A stretch of DNA of 64,000 bases from Acidiphilium acidophilum (GTDB taxonomy: Bacteria > Pseudomonadota > Alphaproteobacteria > Acetobacterales > Acetobacteraceae). The notes under the pieces are model-generated. The model saw only the letters and a list, made by a program, of their open reading frames with translations. It was not told where the DNA came from and searched no databases. Positions 15,579 to 54,278 of the stretch are shown one piece after another. The first letter of the stretch is position 1; each line of letters opens with the position of its first letter. The translations under genes were made by a program, and so were the position numbers. The stretch is taken from positions 186,001-250,000 of the forward strand of contig NZ_JAWXYB010000018.1 of the NCBI RefSeq assembly GCF_033842475.1. The letters run 5' to 3'.

Positions 15579-16508
15579 ATGACGACAACGCCATCAGGTC
15601 ACGCAGGCACCGTGCTGGCCCTCCAGGGCGGCGGATCGCACGGCGCCTACGCCTGGGGCGTGCTCGATGCCCTGCTCGCCGATGGTTTCCGCTACGATGC
15701 GGTCTGCGGCGTCTCCTCCGGCGCGATCCTTGCCGCGATGGCAGTGCAGGGCGAGGTCCGCGCCGGGGCCGAGGGTGCCCGCGCCGCCATGGCCCAGTTC
15801 TGGGACCGCTTGGTCGCCACCAACATGTTCGCCCCGCTCACCGGCCATTTCGACCGCTGGATGCCCGGATTCGAAATCGGCCGCACCTTCGGCAACTCCC
15901 TCGCCATGCAGGGCATGTCGGCCATGGTCAACCTGTTCGGCGCCGGCGCGCTCAACCCGCTCGGCCACAACCCGTTGCGCCCGATCCTCGAAGACCTGCT
16001 CGACCCCGCCGCCCTCTCCGACCGGCGCGCCCCCCGCCTGTTCATCGCCGCAACCGCCGTCGAATCAGGCCGTCCCCGGATTTTCCCCAATCGCGACATC
16101 ACGGTCGATGCCCTGCTCGCCTCCTCCTGCCTGCCCATGCTGTTCCCCCCCGTCACGATCGACGGTATCGCCTACTGGGACGGCGCGTATTCCGGTAACC
16201 CACCCCTCGCGCCGCTGCTCGCCCTCGATCCCGCCCGCCTCGTCCTGATCCGCGCCCAAAGCCGCCTGCGCGCCGGCGTGCCCGCCCAACAGAACGACAT
16301 TCTCAACCGCGTCCAGGAAATCGCCTTCCAGACCGCGATCGACGCGGAATGCGCCATGCTGCCCGCCAGCCTCGATTTCATCGAATACCCCGCCGATGAC
16401 GCCCTCGCCGGCCTCCCCCCGGAATCCCGCGCCAATACCGACCGCGCCTTTCTCGACCGTCTGTTCGCCGCCGGGCGCGCCGCCACGCGCCGCCCGAGCG
16501 CGGCATGA
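15579..16508 (+). CDS. Patatin-like phospholipase (RssA/NTE type)
   Basis: A 309-aa cytoplasmic serine hydrolase of the patatin family. The oxyanion-hole motif LALQGGGSHGAY (about residues 13-24), the nucleophile elbow GVSSG (serine near 48) and the catalytic Asp in WDGAYSGNPPL (about 205) are all present, giving an intact Ser-Asp dyad. These proteins hydrolyse acyl esters of phospholipids, but the natural substrate is unknown. It ends 13 bp before the histidine-kinase start. Confidence 0.88.
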   Translation: MTTTPSGHAGTVLALQGGGSHGAYAWGVLDALLADGFRYDAVCGVSSGAILAAMAVQGEVRAGAEGARAAMAQFWDRLVATNMFAPLTGHFDRWMPGFEIGRTFGNSLAMQGMSAMVNLFGAGALNPLGHNPLRPILEDLLDPAALSDRRAPRLFIAATAVESGRPRIFPNRDITVDALLASSCLPMLFPPVTIDGIAYWDGAYSGNPPLAPLLALDPARLVLIRAQSRLRAGVPAQQNDILNRVQEIAFQTAIDAECAMLPASLDFIEYPADDALAGLPPESRANTDRAFLDRLFAAGRAATRRPSAA

Positions 16509-16521
16509 CATCCGCCACGTG

Positions 16522-17925
16522 ATGCCCGCGCCGAACCAGCGCCCGCGCCGGGTCCGCCAGAGCCTGTCCGCCCGGCTGCTCTGGCTTACCGTCGCGGTCA
16601 CCCTCATCGTCGAAGTCATGATCCTGCTGCCCAGCCTCGGGCGTGAGCGCATGGCATGGCTCACCAACCGCGTCACCGAAGCCCACCTCGCCGCCCTCAC
16701 CGTGTCCACCGCCCCGCACGGCGTGGTCGATCTCTCGACCCGCAACGAATTGCTGCGCCTGTCGGGCACCGAAGCGATCCGCCTGGTCGAAGGCGGCCGC
16801 AGCATCCTCGTTCTGCCCCCGCGCGGCATCGTCCGGGCCGAAGGCCATATCAACATCGCCCACGAAACCCTGATCGGCTCCATGCTCCGGGCCGTCGCGG
16901 TCCTGCTCGGCATGGAACCCGACGATATCCTGGTCACCTCGCCCAGCCCCCTGCAACGCGGCGTGATCGTGCAGATTGTGGTCCACAACCCCACCCTCGC
17001 CGACCACCTGCGCCGCTACGTCGAACACATCGCCGCACTCTCGCTCGCCGTCGCTTTGCTCACCGGCCTGATGATCTACCTCGCTCTCGACCGTATCCTG
17101 GTCCTGCCGATCCGCCGCCTCACCGAAAGCATCACCACCTTCCGCGCCGACCCCGAACACGCCGCACCCCTCGCCCTTCCGCGCCGCAAACGCGCCCGCG
17201 ACGATGAAATCGCCCTCGCCGCCAGCGAACTCGCAACCATGCAAACCGAACTGCGCGCCGCCCTCTGGCGCAACGCCCGCCTCGCCGCCCTCGGCACCGC
17301 CGTCGCCAAAATCAGCCATGATCTGCGCAACATCCTCTCCTCCGCCCTCCTGGTCGCGGACCGGCTCTCCGGCAGCGAAGATCCCGCAACCCGCCGCGCC
17401 GCCACCACACTGGTCACCGCCGTCGAACGCGCGACCGACCTCGTCACCCGCACCCTCAGCTTCGCCCGCGAAGGCCCGCCCCCCGTCCTGCGCGCGGCCT
17501 TCCCCCTCGCGGACCTCATCACCGAAGTCGCCGACCAGCTCAGCACCCAGTCCGAAACCCTGCGAATCGAAACCGTGGTCACGCCGGGCCTCGCCATCCC
17601 GCTCGACCGGACCCAGATGTTCCGCGCCCTGTTCAACCTGATGCGTAATGCCGCCGAAGCCGGTGCCAGCCTCATCACCGTCCGCGCCGCCTGCGCCGAA
17701 GGAACCACCACCATCGATATCGAGGACAACGGCCCCGGCCTGCCCGAACAAGCCCACGCCAACCTGTTCCGCCCCTTCACCGGCTCCGCCCGGCGCGGCG
17801 GCACCGGCCTCGGCCTCGCCATCGCCCGCGACCTCGTGCGCGCCCACGGCGGCGAACTCGACCTCGTCGCCACCAGCGTCCGCGGCACCCTGTTCCGCAT
17901 CACCATCCCCCAGGACATCACATGA
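16522..17925 (+). CDS. Orphan sensor histidine kinase
   Basis: Membrane-bound sensor kinase of 467 aa. It has TM1 at about 18-37, a periplasmic domain of about 130 residues, TM2 at about 171-193 followed by a HAMP-like linker (LPIRRLTESITTF), a dimerisation/phosphoacceptor helix with AKISHDLRNILSS (His about 265), an N-box LFNLMRNAAEAGA, G1 IEDNGPGLP and G2 RGGTGLGLAIA. No response-regulator gene is adjacent, so its partner is elsewhere. The ATG at 16522 follows the patatin stop closely. A 192-bp structured repeat begins 33 bp after its stop, before the decarboxylase gene. Confidence 0.88.
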   Translation: MPAPNQRPRRVRQSLSARLLWLTVAVTLIVEVMILLPSLGRERMAWLTNRVTEAHLAALTVSTAPHGVVDLSTRNELLRLSGTEAIRLVEGGRSILVLPPRGIVRAEGHINIAHETLIGSMLRAVAVLLGMEPDDILVTSPSPLQRGVIVQIVVHNPTLADHLRRYVEHIAALSLAVALLTGLMIYLALDRILVLPIRRLTESITTFRADPEHAAPLALPRRKRARDDEIALAASELATMQTELRAALWRNARLAALGTAVAKISHDLRNILSSALLVADRLSGSEDPATRRAATTLVTAVERATDLVTRTLSFAREGPPPVLRAAFPLADLITEVADQLSTQSETLRIETVVTPGLAIPLDRTQMFRALFNLMRNAAEAGASLITVRAACAEGTTTIDIEDNGPGLPEQAHANLFRPFTGSARRGGTGLGLAIARDLVRAHGGELDLVATSVRGTLFRITIPQDIT

Positions 17926-17958
17926 TCCCGCGTTCGGTGATGTCGGAGTGGGGAAGAG

Positions 17959-18150
17959 AAGGCGAGGGGCTCTGCCCCTCGACCCCGCTAAGGGCGCGGC
18001 CCTTAGAACCCTTGAGTTTAAGGCGAGAGGAGGGCGCGGCCCCGGTGGTTCCGTCGATCTCGCCTGGACAGCCCTCCTCTCGCCTTAAACTAGTGGATTC
18101 CAAAGGCTCCGCCTTTGGCGGGGGTCCAGGGGGCAGCGCCCCCTGGCCTT
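17959..18150. repeat. 192-bp multi-hairpin palindromic element, copy A
   Basis: Bounded by AAGGC...GCCTT. Five stems, in order: CGAGGGGC/GCCCCTCG (17963-17981), CTAAGGGC/GCCCTTAG (17988-18006), a perfect 20-bp stem (18016-18035 with 18071-18090) enclosing a 35-nt loop, CCAAAGGC/GCCTTTGG (18100-18118) and CCAGGGGGC/GCCCCCTGG (18126-18146). The two halves are diverged inverted copies of one design. An outer imperfect stem in the flanks (GTTCGGTGAT at 17932-17941 with ATCACCGAAC at 18167-18176) extends it. Equal-length copies lie at 47852-48043 and 53357-53548. No coding potential is visible. Confidence 0.9.
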
Positions 18151-18192
18151 GCCGTCCCACCTCGAAATCACCGAACCCGGGAGCGCGTCGTG

Positions 18193-20366
18193 ATGCGTGA
18201 GATGCGGGATTATCCGATTGCGGTGGTCGATGACGATTATGGGGCCGAGAGTGCGGCGGGGCGGGTGATCCGGGCGTTGGTAGCGTCGTTCGAGGCGCGG
18301 GGTCATGCGGTTCTGGCGGGATTGACGGTGGAGGACGCTCAGGCGGGGAGGGTGCTTTATACCGGTCTCTCGGCGGTGCTGGTTTCGATCGACGGGTTTG
18401 CCGACCGTGAGGCGTTGATTGCGGCGCTGGACCGGATTGTGGCGCTGGCTTTGGCGCGTGCGCCGGATCTGCCGGTATTTCTGTATGGCGAGCGCCGGAT
18501 GCCGGATGATCCGCCGGTCGAACTGATGGAGCGGATCGACGGGTATCTATACCTGCATGAGGACAGTCCGGCGTTCATGGCCGGGTATGTGTCGAGTGCG
18601 ATCCATCGGTATCTCGATGCGATGTTGCCGCCGTTCTTCAAGGCGTTGGCGCGGTATACCGATGCGGCGAAGTATTCCTGGCACACGCCCGGTCATGGTG
18701 GCGGGGTTGCGTTCATGCGCTCGCCGGTGGGGCAGGCGTTCCACCGGTTTTTCGGCGAAACCGCCCTGCGGGCGGATTTGTCGGTCTCGGTGCCGGAGCT
18801 GGGATCGCTGCTCGATCATGCCGGGCCGGTGCGCGAGGCCGAACGCGAGGCGGCGCAGAGTTTCGGCGCGGATTCCACCTTTTTCGTCACCAACGGCACG
18901 TCGAGCGCCAATAAAATCGTCTGGAGCGGGCTGGTCGGGCCGGGCGATGCGGTGCTGGTCGACCGCAACTGCCATAAATCGCTGGTCCATGCCCTGATCA
19001 TGACCGGGGCGCGGCCGATCTATCTGCGGCCGAGCCGCAACGCCTACGGCATCATCGGCCCGATATCCAGCGCGCAGTTCGATGCCGCCGATGTCGCCGC
19101 GCAGGCGGGCGGGCGGGTGCGGATCGCGACGATCACCAACTCGACCTATGATGGCCTGTGCATCAATGCCGACGCGGTGAAGCAGGCGCTCGCTCCGGTG
19201 GCGGATGCGATCCATTTCGACGAGGCGTGGCTGGCGCAGGCGCATTTCCACGAATTCTATCGCGGTTTCTATGCCATGAGCGGCGGGGCGGGGCCGGTCG
19301 AACCGCTGGTCTTCTCGACCCAGTCGACCCACAAGGTGCTCGCCGCGTTCTCGCAGGCCTCGATGGTGCATCTGCGGGAAGGGACGGTGCATAAACTCGA
19401 TCCCGAGCGCTTCAACGAGGCGTTCATGATGCATTCGAGCACCTCGCCCTGGTATGGCATCATCGCCTCGTGCGATGTCGCGGCGCGGATGATGCGGGGT
19501 GCAGCGGGGCGCACCCTGGTCGATGAAACCCTGCGCGAGGCGGCGGCGTTCCGGCGCAGCATCGCGGCGCTGGGCGCGAGTTTCGCGGACCGGGGAGAGT
19601 GGTGGTTCCGGCTCTGGGAGCCCGAGGGCGCCGGGCTGGACCAGGCCGACTGGGTGCTGAAGCCGGGCGATGCGTGGCACGGCTTCACCGATGTCACCGC
19701 CGGGTTTTCCCTGCTCGACCCCATGAAGGTGACTATTCTGTGCCCGGGTCTCTGCCCCGGTCTCAGCCCCGATCGGGGCGACGATGAGGGCATTCCCGCG
19801 CCGATCGTGGCGAAATTCCTGTGGTCGCGCGGCATCGTGGTCGAAAAGATCGGAACCTATCATTTCCTGATCCTGTTCACCCTGGGCGTCTCGCGCGGCA
19901 AATGGAGCAATCTGGTGACGGAACTGCTGGCGTTCCGCGCGCATTATCAGGCCAATACCCCGCTCGCGGATGTCATGCCCGAACTGGTCCGCGAATCCCG
20001 CGCCTACGAGCGGATGGGCCTGCGTGACCTGTGCGAAGCCCAGCACCGCGCCTACCGTGAGGGCGATGTCCTCGCGATCCAGAACGCGATGTTCGAGACT
20101 CTGCCCGAGCAGGCGATGACGCCGCAGCAGGCCCATGCCGAACTCGCCGGCGGGCGGATCGAACTGGTCCCGCTCGATCAGTTGCAGGGCCGGGTGCTGG
20201 CGCGGATGGTGGTGCCCTACCCGCCGGGAATTGCGCTGATCGTGCCGGGCGAGCGGGTCTCCTCACCGCTGATCGTCGAATATCTCCGCTTCGCATCGGC
20301 ATGGGACCGCAAGTTTCCGGGCTTCGAGACCGACATCCACGGCGTCCGCAAGGACGAGGCGGGGGA

Positions 20367-20394
<28 letters not shown>
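18193..20394 (+). CDS. Orn/Lys/Arg decarboxylase (fold-type I, PLP)
   Basis: A 733-aa basic amino acid decarboxylase that removes CO2 from ornithine, lysine or arginine to give the polyamine or diamine. It has an N-terminal response-regulator-like wing domain (1-150), a PLP domain with SWHTPGHGGGVAF, TNGTSSANKIV and HFDEAWLAQAHFHEF, the Schiff-base lysine in STHKVLAAFSQ (Lys 381), and a C-terminal domain. The length and wing fit the AdiA/LdcC/SpeC group; the substrate cannot be read from sequence. No antiporter gene is adjacent, which argues against a classical inducible acid-resistance pair, although proton consumption would suit an acidophile. ATG 18193 lies after the 192-bp repeat. Its 3' end overlaps the convergent regulator gene by 28 bp. 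Confidence 0.9.
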
Positions 20395-46141: not shown

Positions 46142-47839
46142 ATGACCGCTCACGGCCTGCTCTTCATCGCGCTCATCCTCATCCTGGTCCTCGGCAGCGC
46201 CATCCCGCTCGGCGCCTACCTCGCCCGCATCCTCACCGGCAAAACCCGCCTTCTCGCCCCGATCGAGACCGGCATCTACCGGCTCTGCGGCATCGATCCC
46301 GCCCGCCCGATGGGCTGGACCAGCTACGCCATCGCCCTGCTGATGCTCAGCGTGATCCACTTCCTGCTGCTCTACGCCATCCTTCGCCTGCAATATTACC
46401 TGCCGTTCAACCCGCAGCACATCGCCGGCATGGCGCCGATGCTCGCCTTCAACACCGCCGCCAGCTTCACCACCAACACAAACTGGCAGGCCTACGCGCC
46501 GGAATCGCAAATCTCCAACGGTGCGCAGATGTTCGGCCTCATGGTCCACATGTTCATCAGCGCCGCCGCCGGTATCGCCGTCGCCGCCGCCCTGATGCGC
46601 GGCTTCATCGGCGGCGGCCTCAAATCCCTCGGCAACATCTACGTCGATATCATCCGCATCACCCTCTACCTCCTGCTGCCGATCGCCCTCCTCGCCGCCA
46701 CCCTCCTTCTGATCGGCGGCGTCCCCATGACGCTCGACGCCTTCGCCCACCTCCACACCATCACCGGCGCGCCCCAGACCATCGCGCGCGGCCCGGTCGC
46801 CCTGCAGGAAGCCATCAAGGAACTCGGCACCAACGGCGGCGGCTTCTTCAACGCCAACTCCGCCCACCCGTTCGAAAACCCCAACGCAATGACCAACCTG
46901 CTCGAAATCTGGCTCATGCTGGTCATCGGCTTCGCCCTGCCCATCGCCTTCGGCCACATGATCGGCCGCAAACGCGAAGGCCTCGCCCTCTTCGCCGCCA
47001 TGGCCCTCATCCTCGGCTTCGCCATGGTGGGCGACTACGCCGCCGAAGCCGCCAACAACCCCATCCTGATCCACGCCGGCATCATGGCCCACCCCGGCAA
47101 CATGGTCGGCAAGGAAGCCCGCTTCGGCATCGCCCAATCCACCACCTTCAACATCGCCGCCACCGGAACCTCCACCGGCGCCGTCAACTCCGTCACTGAC
47201 AGCTACACCCCGCTCGGCGGCCTCATGCCCCTCTTTCTGATGCAGCTCGGCGAGGTCGCCCCCGGCGGCGTCGGCTCCGGCCTCTGCGGCATGGTCCTGT
47301 TCGCCCTCCTCGCCGTCTTCGTCGCAGGCCTCATGGTCGGCCGAACGCCCGAATACCTCGGCAAGAAAATCCAGTCCCGCGAAATCAAACTCGCCATGCT
47401 CGCCGTGCTGATCCAAACCCTGCTCATCCTCGCAGGCACCGGATTCTCCCTGCTCACCAAATCCGGCCTCGCCTCGCTCGAAAACGCAGGCCCCCACGGC
47501 CTCACCGAAATGCTCTACGGCTGGACCTCCGCCACCGAAAACAACGGCTCCGCCTTCGCCGGCCTCGCCGCCAACACCCCACTCCTGGACTACGGCCTCG
47601 GCCTCGCCATGCTGTTCGGCCGCTTCGCCGTCCTCATCCCCGTCCTCGCCATCGCCGGCTCCCTCGCCGCCAAACCCAAACTCCCGCCCTCCACCGGAAC
47701 CTTCCCCACCGATACCCCCCTGTTCGTCCTCCTGCTCATCGGCATCATCATCATCCTCGGCGGCCTCCAATTCATGCCCGCCGATACCCTCGGCCCCCTG
47801 GCGGAACAGTACCTGATGCTCAAGGGGACTGTGTTTTGA
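46142..47839 (+). CDS. kdpA: Potassium-transporting ATPase subunit KdpA
   Basis: K+-selective channel-like subunit of the KdpFABC P-type ATPase, 565 aa with about 10 membrane helices. Selectivity-filter regions are visible: FNTAASFTTNTNWQAY, GTNGGGFFNANSAHPFENP, STGAVNSVTDSYTPLGG and TENNGSAFAGL. GGAGG precedes the ATG. Codon use is strongly C-ending, as in kdpC and kdpD. The 192-bp structured element, copy B, begins 12 bp after its stop. Confidence 0.97.
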   Translation: MTAHGLLFIALILILVLGSAIPLGAYLARILTGKTRLLAPIETGIYRLCGIDPARPMGWTSYAIALLMLSVIHFLLLYAILRLQYYLPFNPQHIAGMAPMLAFNTAASFTTNTNWQAYAPESQISNGAQMFGLMVHMFISAAAGIAVAAALMRGFIGGGLKSLGNIYVDIIRITLYLLLPIALLAATLLLIGGVPMTLDAFAHLHTITGAPQTIARGPVALQEAIKELGTNGGGFFNANSAHPFENPNAMTNLLEIWLMLVIGFALPIAFGHMIGRKREGLALFAAMALILGFAMVGDYAAEAANNPILIHAGIMAHPGNMVGKEARFGIAQSTTFNIAATGTSTGAVNSVTDSYTPLGGLMPLFLMQLGEVAPGGVGSGLCGMVLFALLAVFVAGLMVGRTPEYLGKKIQSREIKLAMLAVLIQTLLILAGTGFSLLTKSGLASLENAGPHGLTEMLYGWTSATENNGSAFAGLAANTPLLDYGLGLAMLFGRFAVLIPVLAIAGSLAAKPKLPPSTGTFPTDTPLFVLLLIGIIIILGGLQFMPADTLGPLAEQYLMLKGTVF

Positions 47840-47851
47840 ACGGCGGGACAG

Positions 47852-48043
47852 AAGGCGAGGGGCTCTGCCCCTCGACCCCGCCAAAGGCGGAGCCTTTGGA
47901 ATCCACCAGTTTAAGGCGAGAGGAGGGCGCGCCCTCGGTGGTTCCGTCGATCTCGCCTGGACAGCCCTCCTCCCGCCTTAAACTCAAGGGTTCTAAGGGC
48001 CGCGCCCTTAGCGGGGGTCCAGGGGGCAGCGCCCCCTGGCCTT
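47852..48043. repeat. 192-bp multi-hairpin palindromic element, copy B
   Basis: Same length, ends (AAGGC...GCCTT) and five-stem plan as copy A, here between kdpA and kdpB. The outer hairpins are placed as in A, but the inner ones are exchanged: CCAAAGGC/GCCTTTGG is left of the central stem and CTAAGGGC/GCCCTTAG right. The central 20-bp stem has one mismatch, and the 35-nt loop has the same orientation as in A. Flanking arms TTTGAACGG (47835-47843) and CCGTTCAAA (48053-48061) extend the structure. Confidence 0.9.
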
Positions 48044-48086
48044 GCTTCCCTCCCGTTCAAACCCCGTTCCCATGGGACATCAGCCA

Positions 48087-50123
48087 ATGACCAGCCAAGT
48101 CGATACGATCCGCCTGTTCGATCGTGCCATTGTCGTGCGTGCCGCGGGCGATGCGGTTTTGAAGCTCGATCCGCGCCATCTGATCCGCAATCCGGTGATT
48201 TTCACCACCGAGGTGATTGCGGTTCTGGTTTCGGTGGTCGGTATTCATGAGGTTGTGGCCGGGCGGCCCGCGGCGTTTTCGCTGGTGATTGCGGTGTGGC
48301 TGTGGATCACCGTGTTGTTCGCGACGTTTGCCGAGGCGGTGGCCGAGGGCCGGGGCCGGGTCCGGGCGGATGCGTTGCGCCGTGCCCGGTCGGACACGAT
48401 GGCGAAGCTCGTTCTCGACCCTCGCGACCGCACGATCTTCAAGCCGACCCCCGCGCCCGAACTCCACAAGGACGATCTCGTGCTGGTCGAGACCGGCGAC
48501 ATCATTCCCTCGGATGGCGAGATCATCGAGGGGATCGCGAGCGTGAACGAGAGCGCGATCACCGGCGAATCCGCTCCGGTAATCCGCGAGGCAGGGGGCG
48601 ATCGTTCGGCGGTCACCGGCGGCACCCAGGTGGTATCGGATTTTCTGGTGATCCGGATCACCGCCGAACCGGGCTCAACCTTTCTCGACCGGATGATCGC
48701 GCTGGTCGAAGGAGCCGAGCGGCGCAAGACCCCGAACGAGATCGCGCTCGACATTCTGCTGGCGGGTCTCACCGTCATTTTCGTGATCGCGGTAGCGACC
48801 CTGCCGGGGTTCGCGTCCTATTCCAAAACCCATCTCTCGATCGCGGTTCTGGCGGCCCTGTTCGTCTGCCTGATCCCCACCACGATCGGCGGCTTGTTAT
48901 CCGCGATCGGAATCGCCGGGATGGACCGGCTGATCCGCTTCAACGTAGTGGCCACCTCCGGCCGCGCGGTCGAGGCGGCGGGCGATGTCGATGCCCTGCT
49001 GCTCGATAAAACCGGCACCATCACCTTCGGCAACCGCATGGCCTCCGCGCTCTATCCGGTCCCCGGCGTCGATGAGCGCGTCCTCGCCGAAGCCGCCGCC
49101 TTCGCCTCGCTGGGCGACGAAACCCCCGAAGGCCGTTCGATCGTCACGCTGGTCCGCGACCGTTACCAGATCGACCTTCGCCTGCCGGCCACCGCAACGC
49201 TCGTGCCGTTCAGCGCCAACACAAGGGTCTCCGGCATCGAGTCCGGCGGTAGATCATGGCGCAAGGGAGCGGTCGATTCCGTGCTGAAACTCACCGCCAG
49301 CCCGCCGCCCGCCGCCTTCACCGAAGCGGTCTCGCGCATCGCCCGCGCCGGCTCCACGCCGCTCGCCCTGGCAGTGGACGGAAAGCTGCTCGGCGCGATC
49401 GAACTGAAGGACATCGTCAAGCCCGGCATCAAGGAGCGCTTCGCCGATCTCCGCCGCATGGGCATCCGCACCATCATGGTCACCGGCGACAACCGCATCA
49501 CCGCCGCCGCCATCGCCGCCGAGGCAGGGGTGGACGACATGATCGCCGAGGCCACCCCGCAGGACAAGCTCGGCTACATCCGCAAAGCGCAGGAGGAAGG
49601 CCGCCTCGTCGCCATGTGCGGCGACGGCACCAACGACGCCCCGGCTCTCGCCCAGGCCGATGTCGGCGTCGCCATGCAAACCGGCACCCAGGCGGCGCGC
49701 GAGGCCGGCAACATGGTCGATCTCGACAGCGACCCGACCAAGCTGATCGAGATCGTCGAAATCGGCAAGCAATTGCTGATCACCCGTGGCGCGCTGACCA
49801 CGTTCTCGATCGCCAACGACATCTCGAAATACTTTGCCATCCTGCCCGCGATCTTCGTCGCGACCTATCCGGGATTGCAGGCGCTCAACATCATGGGCCT
49901 GACCTCGCCGGAAAGCGCCATCCTCGCGGCGGTGATCTTCAATGCGCTGATCATCGTGGTGCTGGTCCCGCTCGCCCTGCGCGGCGTCAGGTTCCGCGCG
50001 GTCGGCGCCGCCGCCCTGCTGCGCCGCAACCTGCTGATCTACGGCCTCGGCGGCATCGCCGCCCCCTTCATCGGCATCAAGGCGATCGACATGATCCTCA
50101 CCGCCTTTCACATCTTCACCTGA
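48087..50123 (+). CDS. kdpB: Potassium-transporting ATPase ATP-binding subunit KdpB
   Basis: P-type ATPase catalytic subunit, 678 aa. The phosphorylated Asp 307 is in [10 protein letters not shown], with the TGES-type actuator motif ITGESAPV, the hinge [20 protein letters not shown] and [19 protein letters not shown]. It couples ATP hydrolysis to K+ uptake through KdpA. ATG 48087 ([12 protein letters not shown]) is preferred; ATG 48075 would add four residues. It is separated from kdpA by the 192-bp element, unusual for a normally tight operon. Confidence 0.97.
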
Positions 50124-50137
50124 TCGGACCCCGCGCC

Positions 50138-50737
50138 ATGTACCGTGAAATCCGCCCCGCTCTCTCGCTCGTCCTGCTGTTCACCCTCATCCTCGGCGTC
50201 GCCCTGCCCACCGCCTTCACCGGCCTTGCCCAGGCCCTGTTTCCCTTCCAGGCGAATGGCAGCCTGATCAGGCACGATGGCCAACTCATCGGCTCCGCCC
50301 TGATCGGCCAGAATTTCACCGGCCCGGACTGGTTCACCCCGCGCCCCTCGGCCCTCACCGGCACCGATGCCAGCGGCAAAACCATCGCCACCCCCTACAA
50401 TGCCGCGGAATCCGGCGGCTCGGCTTCCGGCCCGACCAATGCGGGCATGATCGCCAACGTCAAAACCCGCATCGCCGCCTACCACGCCGCCTACGGGCCG
50501 GGTCCGGTGCCGGATGATGCCGTCACCACCAGCGGCTCCGGCCTCGACCCGGATATTTCCCTCGAAAACGCCGCGCGTCAGGCCCCGTCCATCGCCGCCG
50601 CCCGCAAACTCCCCCCCGCCACCGTCACCGCCCTGATCAGCCGCCTCGCCCACCACCGCATCCTCGGCATCATCGGCACCGATCATGTCAACGTCCTGAA
50701 ACTCAACCTTGCCTTGAGCCGCCTCGCCGCGCCATGA
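50138..50737 (+). CDS. kdpC: Potassium-transporting ATPase subunit KdpC
   Basis: A 199-aa periplasm-facing subunit with one N-terminal membrane helix (ALSLVLLFTLILGVALPTAF), then GSALIGQNFTGPDWFTPRPSA and TTSGSGLDPDISLENAARQA, the conserved KdpC blocks. It helps to couple ATP hydrolysis with K+ binding. It starts 14 bp after kdpB and ends 9 bp before kdpD. Confidence 0.96.
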   Translation: MYREIRPALSLVLLFTLILGVALPTAFTGLAQALFPFQANGSLIRHDGQLIGSALIGQNFTGPDWFTPRPSALTGTDASGKTIATPYNAAESGGSASGPTNAGMIANVKTRIAAYHAAYGPGPVPDDAVTTSGSGLDPDISLENAARQAPSIAAARKLPPATVTALISRLAHHRILGIIGTDHVNVLKLNLALSRLAAP

Positions 50738-50746
50738 TCGCCCCAC

Positions 50747-53332
50747 ATGCCAACACAGAACACCGAGCATCGGCCTGACCCCGACGCCCTGCTCGCCACT
50801 GCGGCCAACGAGCATCGCGGGCGGCTGAAAATCTTCCTCGGCGCCGCCCCCGGCGTCGGCAAAACCTGGGAAATGCTCGCCGCCGCCCGCCGCAAACGCG
50901 CCGAGGGCACCGATGTCCTCGCCGGCCTGATCGAAACCCACGGTCGCGCCGAAACCGCCGAACAACTCGCCGACCTCCCGATCCTGCCACGCCGGAACAT
51001 CCCCTATCGCGGCCACATCCTCGAAGAATTCGACCTCGAAGCCGCCATCGCCCGCCACCCGGCTTTGCTGCTGGTCGACGAACTCGCCCACACCAACGCC
51101 CCCGGCCTGCGCCACGCCAAACGCTGGCAGGACATCGCGGACATCCTCGATGCCGGAATCGACGTCTGGACCACCCTGAACATCCAGCACCTCGAAAGCC
51201 TGAACGATCAGGTCGCCCGCATCACGGGCGTCCGCGTCACCGAAACCCTGCCCGATACCGTCCTCGGCCTCGCCGCCGAAATCGAACTGATCGACCTTCC
51301 CCCCGCCGAACTCCGCACCCGCCTCGAACAGGGCCGGATCTACCGCCCCGATCTCGCCCGTCGCGCCCTCGACGGCTTCTTCCGCCCCGGCAACCTCGCC
51401 TCCCTGCGCGAAATGGCCCTGCGCCGCGCCGCCCAGCACGTCGATCGCGACATCGCCAGCTACATGCGCGCCCGCGCCATCGCCGGCCCCTGGCCCGCCG
51501 CCGAACGCGTGATGGCCGTCATCGAAACCGGCCCCGCCGCCGAACAGGTGGTCCGCCACGCCGCCCGCCTCGCCGAAGCCCTCCGCGCCCCGCTGCTCGC
51601 CTTCCACGCCGAAACCGAATCCGGCGTCGGCGTCCAGTCCGCCCTCGACCTCGCGATCCAGCTCGGCGGCACGGTCGAAATCACCACCAACGCCGATGCC
51701 GCGACCGCCGCCCTCGATGTCGCCTCCCGCCACAACGTCGCCCATATCGTCCTCGCGCGCCCGCCCACCCGGGCCTGGCGCCGCCCGCTCGCCGCCAAAC
51801 TCGCCCGCCGCGCCCGCGCCTACTCGATCTACACCGTCCCCGATCCCGCCGCCCGCACCACCCAGCCCAAACCCGCCCGACCCCGCCAACCTTTGCTCCC
51901 CTACGCGATCAGCCTCGCCATCATGGCCCTCGCCACCGCCCTCGGCTTCCTCCTGCGCACATACGTCCCGCACGACGCCATGGGCTTCGTCTTCACCGGC
52001 ATCGTGGTCGGCGTCGCCAGCCGCTACGGACGCCGCCTCGGCCTGTTCGCCGCCCTCGCGAGCTTCCTCCTCTGGAACTTCTTCTTCCTCCCGCCGGTCT
52101 TCACCCTCTCGGTCGGCGACCCGCGCGACGTCGTCGCCCTCATCGTCTTCCTCGCGGTCGGCCTGCTCACCGGCACCCTCGCAGGCCGCGTCCGCATCGA
52201 AGCCGAAGCCGCCCGCAGCCGGATCGACGCCCTGCGCCGCGTCGCCCTGTTCGGCCGCACCCTCGCCCGGGCCACCGACGAGCCAGCCCTGCGCACCGCC
52301 ATCGAAACCGAAGCCGCCGCCCTCGCCAGCCACGCCATCGTCCTGATGGCCGCAAATTCCACCCTGCCACTCTCCCCCGAACTCGATGAACCAGCCCAGG
52401 CCGCCGCCGAATTCGCCTTCGCCAACCGCGTCGCCACCGGCGCCGGCACCATCACCCTCCCGCTGGTCCCGTGGCGCTTCCTGCCGCTCGCCACCGAAGC
52501 CGGAACGATCGGCGTGCTCGGCGTCCAACCCGCATCCCCCCTCACCGAACCACTCGCCCAGGCCCTCGGCGCCCTCGCCGATCAGGCCGCCATGGCCACC
52601 GAACGCCTCCGCCTCGCCGCCCGCGCCGCCGAAGCCAACGCCCAGGCCGCCACCCAGAAACTCCGCACCGCCCTGCTGTCATCCCTCTCGCACGACCTGC
52701 GAACCCCGCTCACCGGCATCCGCGGCGCCGCCGAAACCCTCGCCGTCCCCACCCTCACCGAGGCCACCCGCACCGACCTGCTCGCCAGCATCGTCCAGGA
52801 CGTCGAACGCATGACCCGCTTCCTCACCAACATCACCGGCATGGCCCGCATCGAAACCGGCGAGATCGTCGCCCGCCGCGAAACCATCGACCTCGCCCCC
52901 CTGATCGAAGCCGCCATCGCCCGCGTCCCCGAAGCCTTCCACACCGCCGTCAACCTCACCGCCCCCACCATCACCGCCGACCCCGCCCTGCTCGAACAAA
53001 CCATCGTCAACCTGCTCGAAAACGCCATCAAATACGCCCCGACCGGCGCCGCCATCACCATCCGCACCAGCCGCGACGCCACCACCACCACCATCTCGGT
53101 CGCCGACGAAGGCATCGGCATCGACCCCGCCGACCTGCCCCACATCTTCGACAGCTTCTACCGCGCCGCCCACGGCGACCGCATCGCCCCCGGAACCGGC
53201 CTCGGCCTCGCCATCGCCCGCGCCTTCGTCGAAACCATGCACGGCACCATCACCGCCACCAGCCCCCGCCCCGACCTCCCCCGCGACAGCCTCCCCGGCA
53301 CCATCATCACCATCAGATTGCCATGCCCATGA
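50747..53332 (+). CDS. kdpD: Osmosensitive K+ channel histidine kinase KdpD
   Basis: Sensor kinase for low K+ or turgor, 861 aa (E. coli form 894). Domains: N-terminal KdpD domain with Walker A GAAPGVGKT (32-40) and LLLVDELAHTNAPG, a Usp-like domain (about 250-370), four short membrane helices (about 385-480), a GAF-like region (about 500-625), then the kinase core with SSLSHDLRTPLTGIRGAAET (His 649), N-box QTIVNLLENAIKYAP and G2 GTGLGLAIARAF. It phosphorylates KdpE. Copy C of the 192-bp element lies between it and kdpE. Confidence 0.96.
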   Translation: MPTQNTEHRPDPDALLATAANEHRGRLKIFLGAAPGVGKTWEMLAAARRKRAEGTDVLAGLIETHGRAETAEQLADLPILPRRNIPYRGHILEEFDLEAAIARHPALLLVDELAHTNAPGLRHAKRWQDIADILDAGIDVWTTLNIQHLESLNDQVARITGVRVTETLPDTVLGLAAEIELIDLPPAELRTRLEQGRIYRPDLARRALDGFFRPGNLASLREMALRRAAQHVDRDIASYMRARAIAGPWPAAERVMAVIETGPAAEQVVRHAARLAEALRAPLLAFHAETESGVGVQSALDLAIQLGGTVEITTNADAATAALDVASRHNVAHIVLARPPTRAWRRPLAAKLARRARAYSIYTVPDPAARTTQPKPARPRQPLLPYAISLAIMALATALGFLLRTYVPHDAMGFVFTGIVVGVASRYGRRLGLFAALASFLLWNFFFLPPVFTLSVGDPRDVVALIVFLAVGLLTGTLAGRVRIEAEAARSRIDALRRVALFGRTLARATDEPALRTAIETEAAALASHAIVLMAANSTLPLSPELDEPAQAAAEFAFANRVATGAGTITLPLVPWRFLPLATEAGTIGVLGVQPASPLTEPLAQALGALADQAAMATERLRLAARAAEANAQAATQKLRTALLSSLSHDLRTPLTGIRGAAETLAVPTLTEATRTDLLASIVQDVERMTRFLTNITGMARIETGEIVARRETIDLAPLIEAAIARVPEAFHTAVNLTAPTITADPALLEQTIVNLLENAIKYAPTGAAITIRTSRDATTTTISVADEGIGIDPADLPHIFDSFYRAAHGDRIAPGTGLGLAIARAFVETMHGTITATSPRPDLPRDSLPGTIITIRLPCP

Positions 53333-53356
53333 AGGGGGATGGGATGGGAGTGAGGG

Positions 53357-53548
53357 AAGGCCAGGGGGCGCTGCCCCCTGGACCCCCGCTAAGGGCGGAG
53401 CCCTTAGAACCCCGGAGTTTCAGGCAAGGGGAGGGCGACACAGGCGAGATCGACGGAACCACCGAGGCCGCGCCCTCCCCTTGCCTGAAACTAGTGGATT
53501 CCAAAGGCTCTGCCTTTGGCGGGGTCGAGGGGCAGCGCCCCTCGCCTT
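53357..53548. repeat. 192-bp multi-hairpin palindromic element, copy C (inverted)
   Basis: Exactly 192 bp, between kdpD and kdpE, in the opposite orientation to copies A and B; reverse-complemented, its hairpin order equals copy B. Stems: CCAGGGGGC/GCCCCCTGG (53361-53381), CTAAGGGC/GCCCTTAG (53389-53407), a perfect 20-bp stem (53417-53436 with 53472-53491), CCAAAGGC/GCCTTTGG (53501-53519) and CGAGGGGC/GCCCCTCG (53526-53544). The central stem differs from copy A at three positions, each with the matching change on the other side. Flanks carry a further imperfect inverted repeat (GGATGGGAGTG type). Confidence 0.9.
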
Positions 53549-53576
53549 GCTTCACCCCACTCCCCATCCTCCCCGC

Positions 53577-54278
53577 ATGATCACGGGCAATATACTGGTG
53601 GTCGATGATGAGCCGCAGATTCATCGGTTTCTCAAGCCGGCGCTGGAGGCGGCGGGGTATGTTGCGCTGCGTGCCGATACCGGGGGCGAGGCATTGCGGC
53701 TGGCTGCATCCGCTGCGCCCGATCTGATTCTGCTCGATCTCGGATTGCCGGACATGGATGGTCAGGTGGTTCTCGCCCGTTTACGTGCGTTCTGTGCCGC
53801 GCCGGTCATCGTCCTGTCCGCGCGCGACCGCGAGGCCGAAAAGATCATGGCGCTCGATGCCGGGGCGCATGATTACGTCGAAAAGCCGTTCGCGCTGGGC
53901 GAGTTGCTCGCCCGGGTCCGCGCGGCCCTGCGCCATCACGCCCAACCGGCGGACTCCGGCCCGAAGCTCACCCTCGGCGCCCTTGCGCTCGACCCCGAGC
54001 GCCGCGCCGCGACGCTCATGGTCGAGGGCGTCCCGACCGATCTCGGCCTTACCCGCATCCAGTATAATCTTCTGGCATTGTTCGTCCGCAACCAGGGGCG
54101 CGTCCTCACCCACCGGCAGGTTCTCGCCGCGATCTGGGGGCCCGCCCACACCGAGGACATCGCCTATCTGCGGATCTACGTGAGCCAGCTCCGCCGCAAG
54201 CTGATCGCCTCCGGCTTCACCCTGATCACCGAACCCGGTATCGGCTACCGTCTCGCGGAAGCGACCGATCGCGGCTGA
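53577..54278 (+). CDS. kdpE: KDP operon response regulator KdpE
   Basis: OmpR/PhoB-type response regulator, 233 aa. The receiver domain has acidic Asp 10/11 (ILVVDDEPQ), phospho-acceptor Asp 54 (LILLDLGLPDMDG) and the conserved lysine in YVEKPFALGELLAR. The C-terminal winged helix has LTRIQYNLLALFVRNQGR and YLRIYVSQLRRKL. It activates kdp transcription on phosphorylation by KdpD. ATG 53577 was chosen because it immediately precedes the receiver fold. The 3' end overlaps convergent metZ by 34 bp. Confidence 0.95.
   Translation: MITGNILVVDDEPQIHRFLKPALEAAGYVALRADTGGEALRLAASAAPDLILLDLGLPDMDGQVVLARLRAFCAAPVIVLSARDREAEKIMALDAGAHDYVEKPFALGELLARVRAALRHHAQPADSGPKLTLGALALDPERRAATLMVEGVPTDLGLTRIQYNLLALFVRNQGRVLTHRQVLAAIWGPAHTEDIAYLRIYVSQLRRKLIASGFTLITEPGIGYRLAEATDRG

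Follow-up and report, generated by a model that had tools for sequence, protein, structure and literature searches.

A 64,000-nucleotide stretch of the Acidiphilium acidophilum genome (contig NZ_JAWXYB010000018.1, positions 186,001 to 250,000), referred to here as the window, carries three copies of a 192-bp element, which we read, with moderate confidence, as a dispersed, non-coding composite palindrome of the REPIN/BIME type that stands mostly at gene-end sites and whose pairing is probably kept mainly at the DNA level, by template switching. The element has a nested architecture, occurs in many copies, and is missing from some orthologous sites in relatives.

Reading of the window sequence gave copies A, B, and C, each 192 bp long with AAGGC/GCCTT termini, as the initial annotation had stated. 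They follow one plan, in which two inverted modules, with two small hairpins each, surround a variable central stem-loop, and the module itself reads hairpin-ACCCC-hairpin-AATCC. Copy A (17959..18150, minus strand in profile orientation), recovered by sequence reading, BLAST, and a profile search, lies between a sensor histidine kinase gene upstream (16396..17925, plus strand) and an Orn/Lys/Arg decarboxylase gene downstream (18193..20394, plus strand), both assigned from NCBIfam and domain matches. The parts of copy A, read from the sequence, are an outer hairpin of the CGAGGGGC type (17963..17981), such as is modelled by helix 1 of the 23-copy alignment described below, an inner hairpin of type II (CTAAGGGC; 17988..18006), the 21-nt left arm of the central stem (18015..18035), a 35-nt loop with GGTGGTTCCGTCGATCTCGC (18036..18070), the right arm of the central stem (18071..18091; both arms also from the alignment), an inner hairpin of type I (CCAAAGGC; 18100..18118), and an outer hairpin of the CCAGGGGGC type (18126..18146). 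A locus-specific inverted repeat flanks the element, with its left arm at 17933..17941 (TTCGGTGAT) and its right arm at 18167..18175 (ATCACCGAA), as seen in the sequence and the flank statistics.

Copy B (47852..48043, plus strand), supported by the same three approaches, fills the gap between kdpA (46142..47839, plus strand; TIGR00680 over the cut-off) and kdpB (48087..50123, plus strand; TIGR01497 over the cut-off). Its flanking inverted repeat is imperfect, with a left arm (47835..47848) that covers the kdpA stop codon, read from the sequence and the comparison with the related genome G006, and a right arm at 48047..48061 read from the sequence. Copy C (53357..53548, minus strand), placed by sequence and comparison, lies between kdpD (50747..53332, plus strand; PF02702, with KdpD as the best NCBIfam match, below the model cut-off) and a kdpE-like response regulator gene (53577..54278, plus strand; domain matches, with KdpE as the best NCBIfam match, below the model cut-off), and is likewise flanked by the imperfect arms of an inverted repeat (53334..53356 and 53550..53574, from the sequence). 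Given their places within the kdp cluster, transcription has to pass through B and C, barring internal promoters.

The hairpin alleles and the 35-nt loop of copy A were as initially described, and the central stems of A and C, 21 bp in length, indeed differ at three positions that are all compensated; the central stem of copy B has one unpaired position. The further claim, that the loop is conserved around a core, stood for the three window copies, in which A and B carry the core on the same strand and C carries it on the minus strand, so that it reads in reverse on the plus strand. It did not extend to the family, in which the loops are strongly divergent between copies and the core is not general. 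The 16-mer of the loop core occurred exactly at four places in the assembly, all within elements; allowing two mismatches added 19 matches, all of them outside the listed elements. Relative to the loop, the inner modules of A are swapped in comparison with those of B and C.

BLAST of copy A against its own assembly (4.16 Mb, 21 contigs) gave 15 nearly full-length places including copy A itself (E values from 2.8e-96 to 2.9e-21), together with weaker ones, and the whole family found in this way lies on one 3.6-Mb contig. The repeat is far beyond chance. By a profile search of sampled places, with a full copy defined as a match spanning at least 160 bp, the own assembly holds no fewer than 18 full copies, with 5 partial ones besides; the number of full copies was 47 for G007 (1.26 Mb sampled), 30 for G003 (0.84 Mb), and 3 for G006 (36 kb), in stretches many of which were picked around known copies. 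A covariance model built from 23 copies, run with stricter filters and at most 43 candidates scored per genome, matched 24 of 60 genomes, namely 9 of 12 from the same genus (the own genome included), 15 of 24 from the rest of the family, and 0 of 24 from other families of the class. These results, which supply the covariance-model search of Acetobacteraceae proposed in the initial annotation and support its view of a dispersed element, show that the element is limited, among these genomes, to Acidiphilium and related Acetobacteraceae. No published description naming such an element in Acidiphilium or Acetobacteraceae was found in the literature searched, which covers subscription journals scarcely and other papers in part. 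Lichenicola cladoniae presumably belongs to the Acetobacteraceae. For this alphaproteobacterium, RepRanger counts 1,369 REPs, without characterisation in the available part of that report (PMC12306157).

Pairing was examined in an alignment of 23 copies, picked for variety and set in one orientation, on a structure derived from copy B. In total, 97.8% of 1449 cells paired, against 91.6% after shuffling, and this value was reached in 0 of 500 shuffles; the number of pairs changed on both sides (21 of 64 versus 11.0) and the covariation score (0.199 versus 0.082) were also higher than in any of the 500 shuffles. Further pair types showed no excess (38 versus 36.4, with 125 of 500 shuffles as high), and shifting the partner by one column brought pairing down to 54–63%. 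The 21-pair central stem was 98.1% paired in these copies, with 13 pairs changed on both sides. Among 36 distinct central stems, drawn from 94 of 98 copies after a filter that favours pairing (the other four failed the anchor or the 12-pair minimum), 96.5% of the cells were Watson-Crick, compared with 74.6% after shuffling and a maximum of 78.4 in 1000 shuffles. The 684 cells comprised 660 Watson-Crick, 7 G-T, 7 A-C, and 10 other pairs, the last two classes counted by hand; because this tally is in element orientation and not in that of transcription, it shows purity rather than strand bias and provides no test of RNA selection. Both sets of statistics bear out the earlier statement that pairing is kept while the sequence changes. 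Unguided, RNAalifold returned the outer hairpin, a linker stem, the inner hairpin, an inner linker, and the long central stem, together with their mirror images, as a consensus of two nested four-way junctions. Compensation was also found inside the small hairpins, where the outer-hairpin columns 6-22 take three pair types in the 23-copy alignment and the inner-hairpin columns 32-50 and 33-49 change jointly from C-G to U-A within one hairpin; on sequence grounds, this shows the small hairpins to be real local units.

Several variants of this plan were observed. Some copies (L010, L012, L027, and L030) have a third hairpin layer on the outside, and longer hairpins, alike between loci and species, are inserted in the loops of outer or inner hairpins (L009 at 326.5 kb of C18, L208, L238, L229, L236:1536, and L237:4886), giving hairpins nested in hairpins. 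In other genera, similar modules were seen by eye around unrelated central palindromes (L328, L329, L332, and L333) or with no central palindrome (L330, L334, L336, and L337), and the Acidocella copy L123 has a wholly different central stem; what is conserved is therefore the bracketing module pair, and the centre is replaceable. The central palindrome of L329 (G025 C15, another genus) has arms of about 55–60 bp, apparently perfect by eye, and seems unusually long for a bacterial chromosome. The 22-base module AAAGGCNNNGCCTTTGGAATCC, for which about two chance matches are expected in 257 Gb at uniform composition, is widespread in Clostridia, which by their titles account for 101 of 120 among the matches listed, beside 15 of Acetobacteraceae type and 4 other. 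The Clostridia contexts printed were mostly direct arrays of the form hairpin-RAYCC-GC-hairpin, not inverted pairs.

The two arms of the element were consistently unlike. A single inner hairpin of each type, I and II, was present in 84 of 98 copies and two of a kind in none, the remainder having type I only (5 copies) or neither type by the strict pattern (9 copies); the outer hairpins differed in all 80 copies in which both were readable. Long perfect palindromes are unstable in bacteria, and identical arms would turn the element into a perfect palindrome over most of its 192 bp. The probable reason for the unlikeness is that left and right hairpins must differ, as one long perfect palindrome would otherwise form and the element would be lost. 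SbcD is part of a palindrome-cutting nuclease, and the own genome has no match to it (TIGR00619). A match at E 0.001 was obtained in 25 of the 60 genomes, and the cut-off was passed in 4; this distribution does not track the element, and loss of SbcCD was rejected as the cause of palindrome tolerance.

The flanks, which are different at each locus, extend the inverted repeat beyond the element. Over 98 copies, with orthologous copies counted apart, the mean local-alignment score of the flanks was 17.8 against 7.9 for shuffled partners, and 81 copies exceeded the 95th percentile of shuffled partners and 57 the 99th. Ungapped stems spanning the junction reached a score of at least 10 in 58 of 98 copies; among 300 shuffled pairs, 10 did so. 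On a similar though not identical measure, such scores were also reached in element-free gaps, in 27 of 65 convergent and 28 of 130 codirectional ones compared with 2 of 65 shuffled convergent gaps; the element thus occupies positions at which gene-end hairpins are common. Gene neighbours were called with a simple codon-usage script, which may have erred in some divergent cases. On these calls, codirectional genes flank 49 copies, convergent genes 37, and divergent genes 11, with 1 copy at a contig edge, against a background of 885 codirectional, 218 convergent, and 215 divergent neighbours in eight contigs. Convergent pairs are thus enriched (37/97 versus 218/1318), and the median distance to the facing 3' ends is 35 bp. 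The statistics in this way place most copies shortly beyond a gene end and within an inverted repeat, specific to the locus, that prolongs the stem of the element. A separate palindromic repeat, rich in A and T and containing hairpins of its own (AAAGTTTTTTGC..), is found repeatedly in Acidiphilium gaps called convergent (L239:17629-17760, which is G003 C2 77629-77760; G003 C86 at about 37844; G007 C49 at about 8260; G007 C39 at about 71061), and at one G003 site such an AT-rich element stands where G007 has the 192-bp element.

Empty orthologous sites, which the initial annotation had proposed to look for, were found. Site A is empty in four relatives, with a gap of 73–78 bp in G003, G007, and G011 and of 180 bp in G006, compared with 286–303 bp in the window by the same measure. 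In G006, the site (L183, about 1321-1501) holds other palindromic sequence around GTTGACGCAGCTGCGTCAAC; in the other three, no clear hairpin was seen by eye. The site occupied at G007_C44:78654 is empty in G003, where a hairpin with a 10-bp stem (GATCCCGGCC/GGCCGGGATC) is visible by eye between two gene ends, and G006 is empty, again with a hairpin by eye, at a site occupied in both G003 and G007. From these two empty sites, we infer insertion of the element into the loop of a gene-end hairpin that was already there. A direct target duplication could not be read at the empty sites, because the flanks, which read as inverted repeats, are too diverged to define the junction. Most of the orthologous G003/G007 sites in the sampled DNA are occupied in both genomes.

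Comparison of orthologous copies further revealed changes of orientation in place. The G006 orthologues of B and C lie within an 8.3-kb stretch aligned at 84%, and both are kept; B is colinear, and C is inverted as a whole without its flanks. Among 17 orthologous G003/G007 pairs with readable inner states, a hand count gave three whole flips, two module swaps with the loop unmoved, one loop-only flip, and eleven unchanged pairs, three of the eleven having no readable loop in one or both copies; six further pairs were unreadable. The copies L003 and L008 of the own assembly are flipped whole relative to G007. Most of these flips are in draft assemblies, in which assembly error is possible; G000 C18 (3.6 Mb) and G006 C10 (1.3 Mb) are long contigs.

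Strong covariation and an RNAalifold consensus are also what a structured RNA selected as RNA would leave, one that is transcribed with its neighbours and whose fold stabilises or processes the mRNA, the compensatory changes being the mark of selection. The position of B and C inside the kdp cluster and their retention in G006 agree with this explanation, as does the description of REP-type repeats as transcribed RNA elements in the available text of PMC3733652. Against it, the flank mismatches, oriented by transcription, showed no preference for G-U, with 49 G-T and 78 A-C at 41 codirectional loci and 34 and 48 at 26 convergent ones; the 10 divergent loci gave 18 and 21. A single RNA strand tolerates G-U pairs but not A-C, whereas in double-stranded DNA the two are one event viewed from opposite strands. 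The lack of a G-T excess over A-C thus makes the pairing look DNA-made, by template switching, rather than RNA-selected, as far as mismatch counts in sequence can tell. The orthologous flanks gave 19 doubly changed pairs (6.5 expected), and 15 of the 19 were restored; changes on one side only numbered 105. This is a modest effect, from orthologous pairs that are not all independent. Single changes in these flanks favoured G-T (G-U) over A-C by 37 to 12, which speaks for RNA selection and against the DNA-level reading, with little weight, because the strand counted is the arbitrary contig strand and not the transcribed one; as a sign of RNA selection this excess was dropped, given that arbitrary strand and its absence from the transcription-oriented count.

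The predicted folds bear on the same explanation. Both strands of 72 of the 98 copies (those excluded were 25 with fewer than four recognised hairpins and 1 with an N) were folded with RNA parameters, and forcing the recognised local hairpins cost a median of 14.5 kcal/mol (3.0–32.4) over the unconstrained minimum, with a cost in 144 of 144 folds. The unconstrained minima contained none of these local hairpins in 135 of 144 cases and two in the other 9, and in the folds printed, pairing between the two arms largely takes their place. The five-stem RNA was therefore rejected as a ground state. Selection as RNA is further opposed by the mixed order of the modules relative to transcription (26 to 18, with 5 unreadable), by the tolerance of whole flips, and by the Rfam 15 search, which gave no match at gathering score over the whole window, so that a known Rfam RNA was rejected. 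Taken together, these data make RNA selection a rather unlikely explanation. The assertion of the initial annotation that the structure is what is maintained therefore stands in so far as pairing is kept, and is weakened as a statement on selection for an RNA fold (49 G-U versus 78 A-C; fold cost in 144 of 144).

The plan is that of REPINs and BIMEs, without the tag and enzyme that define REPINs and with two hairpins per arm. The initial annotation knew of no named family with this plan, which REPINs do have: the available text of PMC3116915 describes REPs in inverted pairs, separated by a spacer whose length is conserved, with compensatory changes and two alternative folds, a long hairpin or a clover. 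Like REPINs and BIMEs, the element is extragenic and multi-copy and consists of two conserved hairpin units, inverted relative to each other, on either side of a spacer able to pair, with compensatory changes. Unlike REPINs, it has two hairpins in each arm, arms that are unlike wherever readable, a length of about 192 bp, a locus-specific flanking stem, and in-place flips. Over 98 copies, no GTAG lay 6 nt or less from a recognised local hairpin, and 14 copies held it elsewhere. The own genome has no match to RAYT (Y1_Tnp, PF01797), and of the nine genomes in the genus that carry the element, G007 alone has one (E 1.4e-5, 26.7 bits against a cut-off of 23). Strong RAYT matches were found in G002, G005, and G009, exactly the three same-genus genomes without an element match, of which G002 and G005 are 78% and 88% complete; in the rest of the family, the only RAYT match was in G030, where the element match is weak (E 9e-4). 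A RAYT-driven REP was rejected on the tag and this distribution. The element resembles the CGTC-tagged REPs of alphaproteobacteria in being palindromic, in having no known transposase, and in a preference for heterodimers that is unexplained there; it differs in that CGTC repeats are reported missing from Acetobacteraceae (PMC3733652, available text). CGTC was present in 51 of 98 copies, in A to C within the loop, and lay within 6 nt of a recognised hairpin 3 times over the 98, which is not the placement of a terminal tag.

The element was also considered as a classical MITE: non-autonomous, related to an insertion sequence, and mobilised in trans by a DDE transposase through binding to the inverted modules. 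MITEs, with which ERIC/IRU, BOX, and RUP are grouped, are likewise short, non-coding, dispersed, and partly palindromic, and have empty sites. The terminal inverted architecture (AAGGC..GCCTT and the paired modules), the empty sites, and the high copy number in G003 and G007 agree with such an origin. The variable centre and the nested hairpins in both arms are unlike MITEs, as are the arms, which are heterotypic and not identical, the flanks, which are inverted repeats, and the similar modules that bracket unrelated centres in other genera. An autonomous transposase relative, in the form of a gene bracketed by the modules or of two half-elements split by a gene, was not apparent in the BLAST match list or the profile match list over 2.26 Mb, neither of which was a dedicated search. 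We consider this origin unlikely.

The enrichment between convergent genes, by crude ORF calls, and the short distance to facing 3' ends would suit a bidirectional intrinsic terminator kept for termination between genes, and the hairpins of ordinary convergent gaps are in line with such a role. It is disfavoured by the positions of B, which splits kdpA from kdpB, and of C, which splits kdpD from kdpE, and by the 49 of 98 copies between codirectional genes; furthermore, a scan of 47700-53700 for intrinsic terminators (a hairpin with a T run) gave no call at B or C. A terminator function is accordingly quite doubtful. A site-specific inverton, in which a dedicated recombinase flips the element and switches neighbouring genes, accounts for in-place flips as such and is highly improbable, as flips at three nested levels (whole element, modules, and loop) are unexplained by one recombinase site, no sigma-70-like promoter was found in 47700-53700, which holds B and C, and most copies lie past gene ends.

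We therefore favour maintenance of the pairing mainly at the DNA level, in the central stem, the small hairpins, and the flanks, a reading drawn from the almost purely Watson-Crick covariation, the lack of a G-T excess in the flanks, and the in-place flips of loop, modules, and whole element. A polymerase stalled in the palindrome would switch template and copy one arm from the other, a step that would homogenise close arms and could turn round the intervening sequence. In the available texts, template switching between inverted repeats is described as homogenising arms and inverting spacers (PMC8604942), and as creating and maintaining RNA hairpins, loop inversions being rare (PMC8794818). 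The present element shows both effects as a pattern, homogenised arms and inverted spacers, the G003/G007 flips coming from draft assemblies. The quasipalindromes treated in those texts are single short inverted repeats or RNA stems, unlike the present dispersed family with its several nested levels. Strict arm unlikeness, the locus-specific flanking stem, nested flips in place, and flank mismatches free of G-U bias are the new features, and they point to DNA-level maintenance. The mover of the element is probably not a RAYT. In transcripts, the element may form a bulky structure at 3' ends or within operons, as proposed for REPs, and a REP-like role there is possible by analogy. We put forward only tentatively, and hold to be less probable than not by some distance, the stronger version in which the element is a transposase-free, structure-driven repeat: template switching at gene-end hairpins would maintain and re-orient each nested level, extend pairing into the flanks, and filter out copies with alike arms, and what persists would be the palindrome itself rather than a protein partner or an RNA function.

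Compensatory changes commonly count as proof that an RNA is under selection. In this family, with its strong covariation, there are signs that DNA copying makes the matches, namely flank mismatches free of G-U bias on the transcribed strand, flips in place, and pairing extended into DNA that is unique to each site. If this is true, a functional RNA in palindromic repeats could not safely be deduced from covariation alone. That the two arms are strictly unlike may also offer an answer to the preference of REP dimers for heterodimers, for which the available text of PMC3733652 gives no obvious explanation. In Acidiphilium, where G003 and G007 share at least 17 readable orthologous sites, the copies would make a good test bed for whether DNA copying itself keeps palindromes matched.
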